Position numbers and translations under genes: made by a program
Origin: Akkermansia muciniphila
GTDB taxonomy: Bacteria; Verrucomicrobiota; Verrucomicrobiia; Limisphaerales; SXQI01
Length of the DNA stretch: 42,385 bases
NCBI GenBank assembly: GCA_945867235.1
Contig: CAMBHS010000007.1
Span: forward strand, 1-42,385
Direction: 5' to 3'
In this document: piece after piece, positions 34,579 through 42,385 of the stretch
Layout of the letters: each line of letters opens with the position of its first letter
Position numbering within the stretch: the stretch's first letter is position 1
The notes under the pieces: model-generated
Database searches by the model: none
Seen by the model: only the letters and a program-made list of their open reading frames with translations
Told to the model about the DNA's origin: nothing

Positions 34579-36387
34579 TCAGGGTTGGGTTTTTTCTAAT
34601 GCCCGCCTGGTGTCTGTCAATGTTCGAAGAAAAGCCACCAGCGCCTTTTGATCCGCGAGACTGAGGTTCAATCCTTTCTCCGGATGCTTGGCCAGGTTGG
34701 GGTCGAGCGTCGGACTGGGGCGGATGCCCGAGCTGTAATGGGCGACGACTTGTTCGAGCGTTTCAAACCGTCCGTCGTGCATGTAAGGCGCGCTCAGAGC
34801 GACATTGCGAAGGGTGGGCACGGCAAATTTATTTTTGTCTCCCGGACGTCCTGTCACGCCGAACCGTCCCAAATCTTTTCCCGCCTCATCGAGTCCATTA
34901 TTCGCGAAACTTTGACTCTGGAATAACGGTCCTCCATGGCAGTGAAAACAATCCGCCCCCAACTGATTGCGACGTGGATCATACTCGGTGTTGAAAAGTT
35001 CAAACCCGCGTTTCTCTTCCGCGTTGAGTTCGGTTTCCCCCGCGAGCGAACGATCAAATGCCGAGCGGTAGGAGACCTGCGCGAGAAGGAATTGCTCCAA
35101 GCCACGAGCGATCCGATCCGCGGTAATGACCGGCGTTCCGAAAGCGCGTGCAAATAGGTTGGAATAATTCAAACCCGCTTGACTGGGCGCGTGCGTCAGC
35201 TTCTTCTCCACATTCGCCAAGGTCTCGTGCATTTCAAGAGGGTCTTGAATCGGCTGCAAAACTTGATCGCGTAGTCTCGACGATCGGCCATCCCAAAAAA
35301 ATGTTTTTTTCCATGCCAGATTCAATAAGGGCATCGCATTCCGCGACCCGATCTGTCCTTCGGCACCGAGACTCAATCGCCGAGGATCCGCAAACGCCGC
35401 CTCGGGCTGATGACACGAACGGCACGATTGTTTATTGTTGATCGACAATAACGGCTCTTCAAAAAGACGACGCCCCAACTCGACTCCTTCCACCGTCATC
35501 GGATTATCCACAGGCAAAAGGGGTTGGGGAAAATACCGGGCGAACGTGTAGCGATACAACCTGGCGGTCGCGGCCATTTCCACCTGTTGACGGCTGGCTC
35601 CGACGAGAGGTTTGGGTTCCGCCTTTTGAATTCCATCGACAACAAAGGCTCCGGCAAGATTCTCCTGCAGCCGCCCCGCCAGCTCGTCCTGCTCGCGTGA
35701 ATGGGTCGATGTCGTGTCCTCACTCAATGCGATCCGGTGCTTGCCAGAAAAAATTTCGCCCACCTCCAATCCAAGCAAGAGTTCTCGATCCTCACTCAAC
35801 TCCAAGGCAACGGGCAGTGTGATCGTTCTCAACAATCGATCCGTGGCGAGGTGGTAGGAATACCCGCTTCGTTTGCCATTTTGCCGCAACCAATCCCCTT
35901 CGATCGCGAGAAAGATATACCCCCCTTGCCAACTCCAATGGAGCCCATTCAGATTCGGATTGAGGGCGTGATCCGGCGGCAGGTGTGCTGGGTCTTCATG
36001 GTTTTCCTGCACCGGAACTCCAACATCAAATCGGATCCGGTCGTAACTCCCCTCGGGAATTGCATCCACACGAAACCAATTCCGCCCCTCCCTTCCGCTC
36101 ACGTAGGCGAACCTGTTTGAAAGCGTCAGCCAACCGCCGTCCCGTTGATGCAGGGCGAACGAGGAAACCAGATAATCCAACCGCGTGACGGAGATTTTCT
36201 GGCCATTCGCGAGAGTGTTCGTCAACGAATCAAACACCAGCGGTGCCTTGTTGAACCGCGGCCGGATTTCCACCTGCAACGCGTGATGCGAGGTCGCAGC
36301 CCTACCCGCCGCAAGACCACCCCATGTCAGGAATATGAAAACCAATACGCCCGACAATGAAAGTGCCGAGTGACGTTCCATCCTCAA
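34579..36387 (-). CDS. Fused MbnP-like copper-binding domain and MbnH-like di-haem cytochrome c peroxidase
   Basis: The 602-residue protein has a signal peptide (residues about 8-30). Residues 36-220 match the MbnP-like domain: SVTRLDYLVSSFALH (67-80), EGSYDRIRFDVGVP (112-125) and GLHWSWQGGYIFLAIEGDW (148-166). Residues about 275-598 are a di-haem peroxidase of the MbnH/MauG/CcpA group with haem motifs CRSCH (322-326) and CFHCH (480-484) and the distal PYMHDGRF (534-541). In separate-gene systems the MbnH enzyme oxidises a Trp of MbnP to kynurenine, creating a copper site. Here both parts share one chain. There is no Cys before 322, so this is not the four-Cys MbnP type. The start overlaps the YHYH gene by four bases. 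The reaction is inferred, the domain fusion is seen. Confidence 0.82.
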   Translation of the reverse strand: MRMERHSALSLSGVLVFIFLTWGGLAAGRAATSHHALQVEIRPRFNKAPLVFDSLTNTLANGQKISVTRLDYLVSSFALHQRDGGWLTLSNRFAYVSGREGRNWFRVDAIPEGSYDRIRFDVGVPVQENHEDPAHLPPDHALNPNLNGLHWSWQGGYIFLAIEGDWLRQNGKRSGYSYHLATDRLLRTITLPVALELSEDRELLLGLEVGEIFSGKHRIALSEDTTSTHSREQDELAGRLQENLAGAFVVDGIQKAEPKPLVGASRQQVEMAATARLYRYTFARYFPQPLLPVDNPMTVEGVELGRRLFEEPLLSINNKQSCRSCHQPEAAFADPRRLSLGAEGQIGSRNAMPLLNLAWKKTFFWDGRSSRLRDQVLQPIQDPLEMHETLANVEKKLTHAPSQAGLNYSNLFARAFGTPVITADRIARGLEQFLLAQVSYRSAFDRSLAGETELNAEEKRGFELFNTEYDPRRNQLGADCFHCHGGPLFQSQSFANNGLDEAGKDLGRFGVTGRPGDKNKFAVPTLRNVALSAPYMHDGRFETLEQVVAHYSSGIRPSPTLDPNLAKHPEKGLNLSLADQKALVAFLRTLTDTRRALEKTQP

Positions 36388-38141
36388 CGAATGGTAAATC
36401 CATTAGCGAGCGTGAACGTGACGTTGCCCATTCCCGGAGGCCCGGGGAACACCACACTCACCGTCACCACGCCCAGAGTCGCTGTCGCTGGAATCGCAAA
36501 ACTAGCCGTCACCGTGGTGCCGTTGCGACTCAGATTGGACCCCGCGATCGTCCCCACGGTGGCCGATAGCGGATTCACGTTCGTTGGGGGTGCCATCCCT
36601 CCTAAAACCATCGCCAACGATACGGTGCTCCCTCGATTCCCCGAGTTAGGCGTCACACTCGTCAGAGCCGGCCCTCCACCTCCGCCACCGGGTCCCGGTC
36701 CTCCCGTCGTCGTGGTGTTTGTTACAGAATCAAAATTCGCCATCCCTGTTTGAACCAGACGAAAAAACGACTGATTTTCCGACGTGCCCGTGACCTTCGT
36801 CACCCGATTCCTCACAGGCACCACATCGGCAGCCACGGGGATCCATCCCGTGAATTGAGACGTCGATTCCACGCGGTAAGTTCCCCCTTCCAAGGCGCTC
36901 CACACCAGCGTCACCTCGGCGTTCGCCCATTTCGAAACCTCTCCCTCAATAGGCGACTGTGCCCCTCCCATATAATTTGTCGTCACCGTTTCTGCCAGAG
37001 TCGTGACGGCGGCTCCGGTGGGATTGCCATAAAATGCGCGGCCGATATTATACGGAAAAATGGGCGTTCCATTCGCCGCGATGCTGACAAAATAGGCATA
37101 CGTCCCGTTCGGAAATTCCGGCGTCACCGCGAATCGACCATTCCACTCGTCCAAATCAAAATCCGTACCTTGGATTTTTCCACAATCCCCGAGGTAAGCA
37201 TTATCCTCCATATAGCGTCCCAACGGATAGGCCGTTGAAACCGCAGGCCCGCTCTGAGTGGCAGCGACCGCATACAACCGCGTCGCCCACGCCGGGATCG
37301 AGGTGCGGCCCGATGCACTCAGGGTATCCGTGCCGCGCTCGCCGTTTCTCAATTGATAACCAGAAATCATCCGGCGCACACCGCTCGCGGCATTCGCGGC
37401 GTTGGCATAACCGTAGGGTCCATAAATCGGAAACCCATCGCGCACCCAGCCGAGGATGGGCGAATGCTGAGCGACCGCTCCCACAGATTCGGAGTAAGCC
37501 TGGGTTGTCGCATTAAATTCCACGTGGTCTCCCAGAATGTGCCGCAGTGCGATCGGGTTCGCGTGGTAGTGATACGCTCCGTTCCCCGGTTGGTGGGCAT
37601 TCGCAGGATCGAATGTTGGCCCCTCGTTCACATACGCATCGCGATTCCAATACCCCACCCCGTTGCCTTCCGCCGATCCTGTCCAAACGAATCCATCCCG
37701 CGAATCGAACATCGCCACGCCATCCACAAAATACCCGATCGATCCCAGATCCGTCAGGGCATGCGTCATGCTCGCTGTTCCCTGACGTGGAAGTCGATAA
37801 AACGCGTGTTGGTTGACAGGCAGATTCGGAAAGTTCGCCGGCCAAGGTCCCATCGTGTGCAACCCCAGCCCCGTCGTGCGCAGGTAAATCCAGTTCGCTG
37901 ACGAATACAACTCCTGCACCCCCGAGTAGGACGGCAGAGCCTGCGTTTGCGTCCCGTTGCTCCACGTCGTCGAGGTGCTCCGTGCCGATTGTGCGGCCGC
38001 GTTGGCGTAAATCCGGGCGTAACGTCCGGAATCCTTTGTAAGCCACGAATCTATCCGAGCATCCCCGGCATAGCCCCACCCGGACATCACCATCCCAAAC
38101 CCCAGCAGCGTTGCAAGGGAACCCACTTTATTCTTTCGCAT
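36384..38141 (-). CDS. Secreted YHYH-domain protein with C-terminal IPT/TIG-like domain
   Basis: The 585-residue protein has a signal peptide (about 1-26) and a YHYH domain spanning about 90-300. Its namesake YHYH is at 190-193 within NGAYHYHAN, followed by DGFPIYGPYGY at 235-245. The family's His/Tyr cluster is thought to bind metal, though no function is proven. A linker of repeated Gly and Pro near 485-497 leads to an IPT/TIG-like Ig domain (ALTSVTPNSGNRGSTVSL onward). It starts 7 bp after a strong hairpin and overlaps the MbnP-MbnH gene by four bases, so the two are coupled. Location outside the cytoplasm is consistent with its neighbours. Confidence 0.85.
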   Translation of the reverse strand: MRKNKVGSLATLLGFGMVMSGWGYAGDARIDSWLTKDSGRYARIYANAAAQSARSTSTTWSNGTQTQALPSYSGVQELYSSANWIYLRTTGLGLHTMGPWPANFPNLPVNQHAFYRLPRQGTASMTHALTDLGSIGYFVDGVAMFDSRDGFVWTGSAEGNGVGYWNRDAYVNEGPTFDPANAHQPGNGAYHYHANPIALRHILGDHVEFNATTQAYSESVGAVAQHSPILGWVRDGFPIYGPYGYANAANAASGVRRMISGYQLRNGERGTDTLSASGRTSIPAWATRLYAVAATQSGPAVSTAYPLGRYMEDNAYLGDCGKIQGTDFDLDEWNGRFAVTPEFPNGTYAYFVSIAANGTPIFPYNIGRAFYGNPTGAAVTTLAETVTTNYMGGAQSPIEGEVSKWANAEVTLVWSALEGGTYRVESTSQFTGWIPVAADVVPVRNRVTKVTGTSENQSFFRLVQTGMANFDSVTNTTTTGGPGPGGGGGGPALTSVTPNSGNRGSTVSLAMVLGGMAPPTNVNPLSATVGTIAGSNLSRNGTTVTASFAIPATATLGVVTVSVVFPGPPGMGNVTFTLANGFTIR

Positions 38142-38148
38142 ATTAAAT

Positions 38149-38172
38149 CCGTTCCGCCCTCCGGCGGAACGG
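38149..38172 (-). promoter_or_regulatory. Hairpin with GGAG in the loop before the YHYH gene
   Basis: CCGTTCCGCC and GGCGGAACGG form a perfect 10-bp stem. In the minus-strand transcript the four-base loop reads GGAG, and ATG 38141 begins 17 bases after it. The stem would hide or position the ribosome site, or reduce read-through from the EF-hand gene. There is no U-run, so it is not a standard terminator. Confidence 0.55.
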
Positions 38173-38191
38173 AGCCCCGCTAGCCAGGACC

Positions 38192-38935
38192 TTAAGGCCT
38201 CCTGTCACCGTTGGGAGGCTGCGGTCTTCCGCGCCCTTCCCCTCCGGGACCACCTTGTCCACCCTGCCCACCCTGTCCACCCGGCCGCTGCGGGCGATAT
38301 TCGTCAGGCGTCACCTTGCCATCGCCATTCTTATCCAATTTTTTCAAAGCCCTCGCCGCGTGCTCGATCTCATCGGCATCAAAAATTCCATCCCCGTTCC
38401 GATCAAGCGCGCCGAGAAGCGGCGGCATCGGACGCTGTTCACCCATGTTCCCCCGTGGACCACCAGGCCCGCCCGGTCCACCCTGTCCACGGGGTCCTCC
38501 AGGACCACCCCGCCCTGCTTCGCCCGGTCCAAATTCACGCCGCGTGATCTCGACTCTCCTCTGTCCTTCCCCCTCTCCACCTTCCAACCTCAGAGACCCT
38601 CCACGCCGCTGGATCACCTCGACCTCCATCCTCTCATCCTCCCCACGACCTCCCGGCGGTCTCCGATCCTTCAATTTTTTCGCCTGCTCCGGTGTCAGGA
38701 TTTTTTCCAGTTTCGATTTTGAGCTCGCCTCCAGTTCATCCAGCTTCTTCTGCTGTTCCTTCGTGATGTCCAGAGCCTCCCTCGCCATCGGCGGCAGCAG
38801 ATGAAACGCCCCCCCGGGACGACCCTGTCGGATGATACTCACATCCATTTCGCGAGGAGCTTTTTCATCCTTCGCCATTCCGATCAGAGAGGAGGCACCC
38901 AGTGCCACCGCGAGAAAAGTGACCTTTGTATTCAT
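38192..38935 (-). CDS. Secreted EF-hand protein with collagen-like Gly-rich segment
   Basis: The 247-residue protein has a signal peptide (about 1-20). A helical segment about residues 50-95 (DITKEQQKKLDELEASSKSKLEKILTPEQAKKL) resembles Spy/CpxP-type LTPEQ segments. A Gly-Pro-Arg/Gln-rich stretch (about 135-165) follows. Two EF-hands sit near the C-terminus, LDRNGDGIFDADEI and LDKNGDGKVTPDEY, each with the D-x-N-x-D loop. It ends in a Gly/Arg/Pro-rich tail. It is the first gene of an operon with the YHYH and MbnP-MbnH genes (50-bp gap to the former). Calcium binding is predicted from the EF-hand loops. A chaperone-like or scaffold role is only a guess. Confidence 0.8.
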   Translation of the reverse strand: MNTKVTFLAVALGASSLIGMAKDEKAPREMDVSIIRQGRPGGAFHLLPPMAREALDITKEQQKKLDELEASSKSKLEKILTPEQAKKLKDRRPPGGRGEDERMEVEVIQRRGGSLRLEGGEGEGQRRVEITRREFGPGEAGRGGPGGPRGQGGPGGPGGPRGNMGEQRPMPPLLGALDRNGDGIFDADEIEHAARALKKLDKNGDGKVTPDEYRPQRPGGQGGQGGQGGPGGEGRGRPQPPNGDRRP

Positions 38936-40028: not shown

Positions 40029-41063
40029 TTAGCTGATCGTGAGTTTGCGCAGCCCTACGGTGGAGGTGACCACGCAGTTGCTGTAATGTTCGACTGTGAG
40101 ATCGATCATTTTCGCACTAACGGCCTGCTCGTAAATGCGGTATTTGCCGCCGCTTTCGACCGCGCTCCAGAACCGTTTTCCGTGGCTGGGATCATCCGGC
40201 CCGAGTCCATCCTCGGCAAAGAATTCCAGCACGATGTCCGGCGTGACTTTCGATTTGGCGGTGGCGGTGTTTTGGTATCGCTCGCGGGAGATTCGGATGC
40301 CATCGACTCCGAGGAACCCGGCGAGCTCAGGTGCGGTCAACCCTGCTGAGGCGAACCCTCCTGCACTCGCCTGGGCCCGGTGGGCGATCAGGCGTTTGTT
40401 CCAAGCCACATCCCCGAACAGGAGTCGATTGGGTCTCACGCCGGAGTCGTCCACGGCGGCGATGAGATCGGTGAGGATTTCTTGATCCGGGTCCTTTCCG
40501 GCGGTGGTGTCCCACGTTTTGGCGGTGTTTGTCGCGGCTCCGGAGAGGGCGGTGATTGCCCGCCGCAATTCGCTGCGCAAAAGGCGTTGCAGCAAACGCG
40601 ACGTGAAGACCTCGCGCCAGTTCGGCATTCCGTCCACTTGGTCCAGATCGATCCGTAGGGTCAGTCCCTTGTTGTAAGTTTTTTCCAACTGGGTGCTGCC
40701 CTTGTAATCGACGCGTTTGAAGTCCGCCCCGATCGCGCGGAGGTCATCGGTTTCCGAGTAAAAGGCTTCGGCATTGTCCGCTTTCTTGAACTCGAATCTC
40801 CGACCCACTTGCACCGGGGGAAAGAGGAAATCGAGAGTTTCCTCGATTTGATTGGGGTCACGCCAACCGACAGCGTAGGCCGTCAGGGGCTCGGAAAAAA
40901 ATGAGGCGTTGAAGCGCGACTCATTCGCGAGGGCAACTTGCCCGGGGGTCATGCGTCCATTGTCCACCGCGAACCGTTCTTCGGGACGGAATGCGGCGAG
41001 CGTGTCGGGAGCACTGCGGATGGGGAGGTCTAATTGAGGTTCCGTTTTCATAGGAGTATTCAT
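40029..41063 (-). CDS. Phage major capsid protein (HK97-fold candidate)
   Basis: The 344-residue protein has an N-terminal part with a repeated-residue scaffold-like character. The core segment DDSGVRPNRLLFGDVAWNKRLIAHRAQ and the later PDIVLEFFAEDGLGPDD are typical of capsid proteins from Mu/lambda-related phages. It follows a decoration-protein gene and a Mu-I-like protease gene in normal head-gene order. The HK97 fold is inferred from the gene order and such segments, not from a known fold motif. A second Met at 41051 is an alternative start. No tail or portal gene follows within the window. Confidence 0.65.
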   Translation of the reverse strand: MNTPMKTEPQLDLPIRSAPDTLAAFRPEERFAVDNGRMTPGQVALANESRFNASFFSEPLTAYAVGWRDPNQIEETLDFLFPPVQVGRRFEFKKADNAEAFYSETDDLRAIGADFKRVDYKGSTQLEKTYNKGLTLRIDLDQVDGMPNWREVFTSRLLQRLLRSELRRAITALSGAATNTAKTWDTTAGKDPDQEILTDLIAAVDDSGVRPNRLLFGDVAWNKRLIAHRAQASAGGFASAGLTAPELAGFLGVDGIRISRERYQNTATAKSKVTPDIVLEFFAEDGLGPDDPSHGKRFWSAVESGGKYRIYEQAVSAKMIDLTVEHYSNCVVTSTVGLRKLTIS

Positions 41064-41081
41064 ACGAGTTTTAGGTGGATG

Positions 41082-41579
41082 TTAGATGACACGGAGGAAG
41101 TAAAAGGGATCGACCTCGATCACATCCCCCGCTGCACTCGCTGCGTCCAAGGCGCGACCCACGACATGATGCGTCCCTACGCCGCTCCCCAGAGTGGCGA
41201 TGCGTCCGGAGGCAGCGGGTTCCACCAAGGCTCCTTGCGCGATGGCTGCCGAGGCCACCATGCGGATCGTGAAACCGGCGCAGCCCAGCAAGGCGACATT
41301 GACCATGTCGCCCACGGCGGCGGCTTCGTCGGTGATGACGCCCATGGGGGTATCGATCGCCGCACAGACGTTGACGCGGTCGGTCGTGCTGCCGATTTTT
41401 CCGAGCAGATAGCGCTCGGTAATGATCGCATCGGAGGCTTTCGTGATCTGGCCCGCGTGGATGCCTTCGGCGATGTTGGCCAGCTTCACGCGGCGGTGCG
41501 GTTTGTTCTCCGCCAACCATCGTTTGCGGAGGCGTTGGTAAAGGCCTTTGAAGGCTCGTTTCATTCCATTTGATTTCAT
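41082..41579 (-). CDS. Phage capsid cement/decoration protein (DUF2190-like)
   Basis: The 165-residue protein has a basic N-terminus (MKRAFKGLYQRLRKR) and then a beta-rich domain with PMGVITDEAAAVGDMVNVALLG, AIAQGALVEPAASGRIATL and a final GDVIEVDPFYF. This pattern, G-V-x-GD-V with an A-x-GDxI-V close, is that of DUF2190 and lambda D-like decoration proteins. These stabilise the capsid. An inner Met at 41564 could be the start. It lies between the protease and capsid genes. Confidence 0.65.
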   Translation of the reverse strand: MKSNGMKRAFKGLYQRLRKRWLAENKPHRRVKLANIAEGIHAGQITKASDAIITERYLLGKIGSTTDRVNVCAAIDTPMGVITDEAAAVGDMVNVALLGCAGFTIRMVASAAIAQGALVEPAASGRIATLGSGVGTHHVVGRALDAASAAGDVIEVDPFYFLRVI

Positions 41580-41616
41580 GTTTCTACTTTCTCTGTTGTT
41601 TTATTGCGGGGACACA

Positions 41617-41637
41617 CACCCCGGAACACCCGGGGTG
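41617..41637. terminator. Hairpin between the protease and decoration genes
   Basis: CACCCCGG and CCGGGGTG pair over eight perfect base pairs around AACAC in the 68-bp gap. No U-run follows on either strand, so it is more likely a processing or attenuation site than a terminator. Confidence 0.35.
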
Positions 41638-41647
41638 AAATTGGGGG

Positions 41648-42385
41648 TCAGGAGGAGGCATGAGTTCCGGTGCTCATGAGTTCAAAAAGGCGCGGTTGAT
41701 CGGTTTTGACACCGGCCCACGCCGCGTCGTAACTCATGCCCTGCGCCATTTTTGCGGCGACGGCTTCGCGCACGCGGTGGGCTCGATCTCCTCCCGACAC
41801 GGCACCCGATCGACGGCGCGACAAGTGTCGTGTGTGGCACTGGGCCTCGACATGCAGGACCGATGGCGGGAGACCCTGTTGATTCGCGAGATGCCCGGCG
41901 GCAAATTCCTGGCGGAGACGCATTTCCTGGGCGGGGGTCGCCCATCCGCTTTGCAGGGTGGTTTCCATCCACGCGTCAAAATCTGTCGCCGCGATGGGGG
42001 CGGTGTTGGCCAACGGGGGGACGGGCAGGTTGGGTTGGTTGGTCAACCCTGCGGAGATCAATCGCACGGGGCGGAACAAGGGGCGACCGTCTCGCGAACC
42101 GATCGGCTCGGCTTCCCAGAATGGCGAATAAAATTTGTAATGTCCGCCTTGGATCAACGCCCAACCTTCGGCCGTCCAGTGGACGCGGGCATACAATCCA
42201 TCCGCCCGGGGTTCAAGATCGAGAATCCAACCATAGGCTTTTGTCTCCACCGTAGAAGGAGCGGCGTCAGGATGCCCCACGTAAAACGGCAACCCTCCAA
42301 AGCACCGCCCCAGCCTGGCCCAGAATGATTTGAAATTCTGGTGCAACATTGCCAATGCCGCCGCGTCCACCCGCTGCCATCCGCG
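41648..42385 (-). CDS. Mu-like phage protease/scaffold (Mu I homologue), 5' end missing
   Basis: The frame runs past the right edge. The visible part (over 240 residues) contains GLPFYVGHPD, TKAYGWILDLEPRADGLYARVHWTAEGWALI and YKFYSPFWEA, which match the Mu I/Mu-like_Pro family (DH-like motif, GWi-dl-dGL-a-V-WT, YSPvf). The protein is a head maturation protease, and its C-terminal part may be the scaffold. The C-terminus (MSYDAAWAGVKTDQPRLFELM) is typical too. It is the first visible gene of a head module that continues with the decoration and capsid genes. Confidence 0.72.
   Translation of the reverse strand, partial: RGWQRVDAAALAMLHQNFKSFWARLGRCFGGLPFYVGHPDAAPSTVETKAYGWILDLEPRADGLYARVHWTAEGWALIQGGHYKFYSPFWEAEPIGSRDGRPLFRPVRLISAGLTNQPNLPVPPLANTAPIAATDFDAWMETTLQSGWATPAQEMRLRQEFAAGHLANQQGLPPSVLHVEAQCHTRHLSRRRSGAVSGGDRAHRVREAVAAKMAQGMSYDAAWAGVKTDQPRLFELMSTGTHASS

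Follow-up and report, generated by a model that had tools for sequence, protein, structure and literature searches.

The window, a stretch of 42,385 nucleotides that was analysed over its whole length, contains three adjacent genes on the minus strand, as are all features of the window given below. The first codes for a putatively secreted EF-hand protein (positions 38192–38935; Pfam EF-hand_5, 30 bits) and the second for a YHYH protein of 585 amino acids (36384–38141). Directly downstream of the latter is a gene for a fusion of MbnP and MbnH (34579–36387). An earlier note, made from the sequence alone, had described these three genes, and all were found. It had also given the YHYH and fusion genes an overlap of four bases, which holds if translation of the fusion starts at the TTG codon at 36387 (602 amino acids); with the in-frame ATG at 36381 (600 amino acids) it does not, the junction after the YHYH stop codon then being TGA-GG-ATG, with a gap of two nucleotides. 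Residue numbers of the fusion are counted from the TTG start. Judged by eye, the amino-termini of the three proteins look like Sec signal peptides, and they would be exported. The genome itself (2.72 Mb, 96% complete) contains a single match each for MbnP, YHYH and CCP_MauG; since all of these sit here, the grouping of the locus is not due to chance. Cytochrome c assembly genes were found in the same genome. Between the EF-hand and YHYH genes, just ahead of the start of the latter, the short intergenic stretch contains an 11-bp hairpin (38148–38173). Two close relatives (L043 and L044) have the EF-hand, YHYH and fusion genes in identical order; by eye, an inverted repeat is present in this gap in L044 and none in L043. 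At the right edge of the window, phage head genes are located (40029–42385), of which 40029–41063 matches the major head protein family phrog_1005; the phage-like reading frames in this area suggest that a prophage adjoins the locus.

The amino-terminal half of the fusion, which was searched for the MbnP-like domain proposed in the note, matches the profile PF20243 at residues 36–224 (35716–36282; 104.6 bits against a cut-off of 27; E-value 7.8e-31 in the genome search). The NCBIfam profile TIGR04052 (MbnP_like_WxW) gives 41.2 bits, below its cut-off of 140, so the fused MbnP forms a divergent branch. The domain was compared with those of 99 fusion loci (97 distinct ones, L024/L064 and L025/L112 each being the same locus twice) and with unfused MbnP and MbnH references from plasmids of Methylocystis, Trichormus, Pseudoalteromonas, Paracoccus and Ideonella, the Methylocystis parvus MbnP being a close homologue of the solved MbnP (PDB entry 7l6g). 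In several RefSeq plasmid annotations, for instance L124 3908–5068, the name given to MbnH genes is "methanobactin export MATE transporter MbnM", an evident naming error. The tryptophans W151 and W153, singled out earlier, form an exact WxW motif (W151-S152-W153, HWSWQGGYIFLAIEG, 35929–35937); all 99 fusions have it, as do the six unfused MbnPs. In work by Manesis from 2021, the first tryptophan of WxW is said to become kynurenine in Methylosinus MbnP, and W151 is the predicted kynurenine position in the fusion.

In the alignment of the 99 fusion loci, H150, W151, W153, H179, H229, S230 and D234 are invariant. H179 (35851–35853) aligns to the histidine of the HLGSTGC motif in all six unfused MbnPs and is a predicted copper ligand, with H229 (35701–35703) as the predicted second one. 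At the position of H229, the six unfused proteins have their sole invariant methionine besides the start, in the motif CM(S/G). The published copper site of MbnP consists of one histidine, one methionine, kynurenine and solvent; this and the invariance of the aligned methionine suggest that the latter is the MbnP ligand. Of this presumed ligand pair, the histidine is kept (H179), while the methionine is replaced by H229 in all 99 fusions. The predicted copper site of the fusion, formed by kynurenine, H179 and H229, would therefore resemble those of CorA and MopE* rather than the His/Met site of MbnP. The cysteines of the CM..D..C motif are gone from the fusions: 82 of the 99 fused domains contain 0–1 cysteines, versus 6–7 in the unfused MbnPs.

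The carboxy-terminal part of the chain, from about residue 285 to 594 (34606–35535), is a di-haem peroxidase domain of MbnH/MauG type. In the profile search, CCP_MauG is matched at residues 300–452 (165 bits), followed by a carboxy-terminal cytochrome c; together with PF20243 in the same reading frame of 602 amino acids, this bears out the joining of MbnP to an MbnH-like peroxidase in one chain. The MbnH structure (PDB entry 6e1c) ranks first both by sequence and by fold (fold E-value 2.6e-19, TM 0.71 by target), while TIGR04039 is matched with 221.6 bits, below its cut-off of 362.85. Both haem motifs are intact, as had been noted: CRSCH (residues 322–326, 35410–35424), of which C322, C325 and H326 are present in 99 of 99 fusions, and CFHCH (residues 480–484, 34936–34950), present in all 95 fusions that reach this site. 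By alignment, W365 (35293–35295, in FWDGR) is a candidate inter-haem tryptophan, conserved in 99 of 99 fusions and three of three unfused MbnHs; Y551 (34735–34737; 92 of 93 fusions and three of three unfused MbnHs) is, by homology, a candidate for the distal tyrosine of MauG and MbnH. Between D234 and D294, which belongs to the DNP motif of the peroxidase domain, the spacing has a median of 60 residues (5th to 95th percentile 57–65), and a distance so nearly fixed suits docking of the two domains within the chain. The structure model of the fusion, calculated from a 19-row alignment, is mediocre (pTM 0.50).

Judged by its relatives, the genome belongs to the Verrucomicrobiota. MbnP is present in 16 of the 289 genomes of the phylum sampled, and at every intact locus among them WxW and two CXXCH motifs are found in one and the same chain; two further loci (L034 and L040) are broken by frame changes. 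The note had presented MbnP and MbnH as known separate pairs. Such unfused pairs exist, but in the phylum sample the fusion is the sole intact form rather than a rarity. When the contigs of GTDB genomes were scanned with a pattern of the WxW region, 428 relatives were obtained. The best 80 of these were read and all are fusions, the search pattern itself having been derived from fusions; the closest among these 80, in a metagenome-assembled genome titled Verrucomicrobia bacterium Pedos-1123, is 65% identical. The domain order, MbnP before the di-haem peroxidase, is conserved over the 99 loci.

Within 3 kb of the fusion, YHYH is present in 63 of the 99 loci and a galactose-oxidase-like gene in 11; 15 loci with enough flank contain neither, no single alternative partner being seen among their neighbours, and in the remaining 10 the flank is too short. 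Conservation of the neighbours, for which the note had suggested a search with both the YHYH and the EF-hand gene, applies to YHYH. It does not apply to the EF-hand gene, which is found in about 20 of the 99 loci at varying places; owing to this scattered occurrence outside close relatives, it was rejected as a part of the conserved system and is excluded from the core. In a quick tree of the 97 fusions, with long outgroup branches to three unfused pairs, the fusions linked to galactose oxidase form one group (one change versus a mean of 10.5 after shuffling; SH-aLRT 88), and the YHYH-linked fusions fill the rest, several early branches included. In one locus (L033, 6502–10433), the fusion gene overlaps by four bases with a histidine kinase gene, ahead of which lies a response regulator gene; this pair is possibly a metal sensor.

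The YHYH gene is mostly located directly upstream of the fusion on the same strand; in 46 of 68 cases, the upstream YHYH reading frame stops no more than 60 nucleotides from it. Among the 289 genomes, YHYH is present in 16 of the 16 with MbnP and in 14 of the 273 others (Fisher 2e-18, uncorrected for kinship, related genomes not being independent). Its domain (residues 115–357, 37071–37799) matches the profile PF14240 with 142 bits against a cut-off of 25 and belongs to a fusion-linked class, of which 12 of 16 members adjoin a fusion, versus 1 of 17 in the other class (p 6e-5, counted by eye). Residues D178, H183, H191, H193, H226 and D235 are present in 63 of 63 fusion-linked YHYH proteins, with H226 replaced by lysine, arginine or glutamine in the second class; several tyrosines and tryptophans are also invariant. 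The AlphaFold model is confident (pLDDT 89, pTM 0.86), but a comparison with the PDB gave nothing better than an E-value of 2.7, so no solved fold was matched; a fold search of BFVD retrieved chiefly viral YHYH proteins. Fusions of YHYH itself were seen with a sulfatase (L022, 3852–6953) and with an EF-hand region (L024, 9219–10802). In L103 (11836–12960; 243 bits, full profile), an additional YHYH gene, which belongs to the other class, lies closely 3' of the MbnP–MbnH fusion, with similar arrangements in L046, L052, L054, L079 and L098.

The main evidence on the partner comes from the galactose-oxidase-like enzyme of the sister loci, beyond the single locus that the earlier note had in view. 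In the 11 loci its gene is always located directly downstream of the fusion, mostly with a four-nucleotide overlap, and in the 289-genome sample the six genomes with PF09118 all have this gene immediately behind a fusion. The protein aligns over its full length with solved galactose oxidase (E-value 5e-98), and the residues of the copper-radical site (C228, Y272, Y495, H496 and H581) are kept in 11 of 11. It also contains lectin and PKD domains and a carboxy-terminal di-haem region similar to CCP_MauG. In a literature search that left out the main MbnP papers, no publication on the one-chain form was found; within the same search, the exchange of the methionine ligand for histidine and the linkage of the fusion to galactose oxidase and YHYH appear to be undescribed. 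The kinds of domain are known, and domain databases may already show them joined in one chain.

The fusion has both domains in common with the MbnP and MbnH of methanobactin operons (PF20243/TIGR04052 and TIGR04039; PDB entries 7l6g and 6e1c), as well as WxW, the HLGS-type histidine, the MbnH fold, two haem c sites and the positions of the inter-haem tryptophan and distal tyrosine. It differs in being one chain instead of two, in the histidine at the methionine ligand position, in the loss of the CM..D..C cysteines and in H150 preceding W151; its neighbours are YHYH or galactose oxidase genes and not those of methanobactin or copper uptake. CorA/CorB of Methylomicrobium album and MopE*/SACCP are alike in an adjacent di-haem peroxidase and in a copper site of kynurenine and two histidines, which is predicted here and solved for CorA (His64, His114 and Kyn62; PMC3912023). 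As CorA and MopE have no marked sequence similarity to MbnP (PMC3621798), this likeness would be convergence. MauG, which acts in tryptophan tryptophylquinone biosynthesis, is likewise a di-haem enzyme that modifies a protein tryptophan with a homologous domain, but its substrate is on another protein. The MauG profile TIGR03791 is matched with 161 bits, which misses its cut-off, and Q375, P379 and E385 of the fusion have the same spacings, of 4 and 6, as Q103, P107 and E113 of MauG, residues that are named in PDB titles along with Y294. Maturation of the copper-radical oxidase GlxA in Streptomyces requires the copper chaperone Sco as well as the haem peroxidase DtpA, and galactose-oxidase genes co-occur with sco in Burkholderia (PMC4736821). 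In the sister loci too, a putative copper-binding factor and a haem peroxidase would serve a secreted enzyme of the galactose oxidase family; the fusion, by comparison, belongs to other families than Sco and the DyP peroxidases, would combine both activities in one chain and is gene-linked to the oxidase. On a Burkholderia ambifaria plasmid (L132, 6849–10198), a galactose-oxidase-like gene overlaps an SCO copper-chaperone gene by four bases.

The reading that we favour, with a probability of about 0.5, is that the fusion is a self-maturing copper-site protein which supplies copper to a co-encoded secreted metalloprotein or helps to mature it. The fusion would be exported as a single chain, its di-haem domain, driven by H2O2, would convert W151 in the MbnP domain of the same chain to kynurenine, and this residue, together with H179 and H229, would complete a copper site. 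Once finished, the protein would then serve the adjoining metalloprotein, which is YHYH here and the galactose-oxidase-type enzyme in the sister clade. Export, copper binding, tryptophan oxidation, action in cis rather than in trans and delivery to the partner are all steps that we infer. This account is proposed because an MbnH-type enzyme is tied to its own substrate domain, the copper-type site is conserved and a copper enzyme is the constant neighbour in one clade. Delivery to YHYH is extrapolated from that clade, with the Streptomyces pathway as a functional parallel. Counted against this account are the missed cut-offs of TIGR04052 and TIGR04039, the published prediction of YHYH as a zinc-dependent hydrolase (PMC7824862) and the 14 or more fusion loci that have neither partner within 3 kb. 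Outside methanobactin operons, MbnP and MbnH have no settled role, and the gene-locked one-chain form leads to a concrete hypothesis for a client. It would also be a simple, single-protein system in which to study enzyme-made kynurenine, with a predicted change of copper ligand, and offers a way into the function of YHYH, a widespread and uncharacterised family.

Two other accounts concern the action of the peroxidase domain. It might mainly clear the H2O2 of the partner oxidase, in which case the MbnP domain would store copper or serve for docking and any tryptophan oxidation would be a secondary matter. Galactose oxidases do produce H2O2, DtpA uses that made by GlxA (PMC4736821), and the galactose-oxidase partner bears a di-haem region of its own; however, the invariance of WxW and of both candidate histidine ligands in all 99 loci, those without an oxidase included, and the closer relationship of the domain to MbnH than to classical peroxidases make this account unlikely. 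Still less probable is that the domain oxidises the partner in the fashion of MauG, at a tyrosine or tryptophan of YHYH or at the Tyr-Cys site of the oxidase, and that the MbnP domain is an adaptor. This would fit the separate substrate of MauG, the tight co-encoding of partner and fusion, the way in which partner type follows the fusion tree and the invariant aromatic residues of YHYH, but an invariant substrate tryptophan, in a known WxW motif, is already available inside the chain. Moreover, the cross-link of galactose oxidase forms unaided, from copper and oxygen.

The nature of YHYH bears on the delivery step alone. That the fusion-linked class is a new family of cuproproteins or copper enzymes, whose fold the PDB lacks and whose site is built or loaded by the self-maturing fusion, as for galactose oxidase in the sister loci, is a tentative proposal. 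A comparably doubtful one, under which the fusion could still modify itself, is that YHYH has nothing to do with copper, being a surface protein or a hydrolase dependent on zinc or calcium that is co-expressed for ecological reasons, the fusion having a part in general copper handling. Iyer et al. predicted YHYH in phage tails to be a zinc-dependent hydrolase with a zinc site (PMC7824862), and the partner in this locus may accordingly be something other than a copper protein; the sulfatase-fused YHYH and the strong homologues of the other class, mostly unlinked to fusions, point the same way. Against this, the class that adjoins fusions has the extra invariant H226, and the partner that takes the place of YHYH in the sister loci is a copper enzyme.
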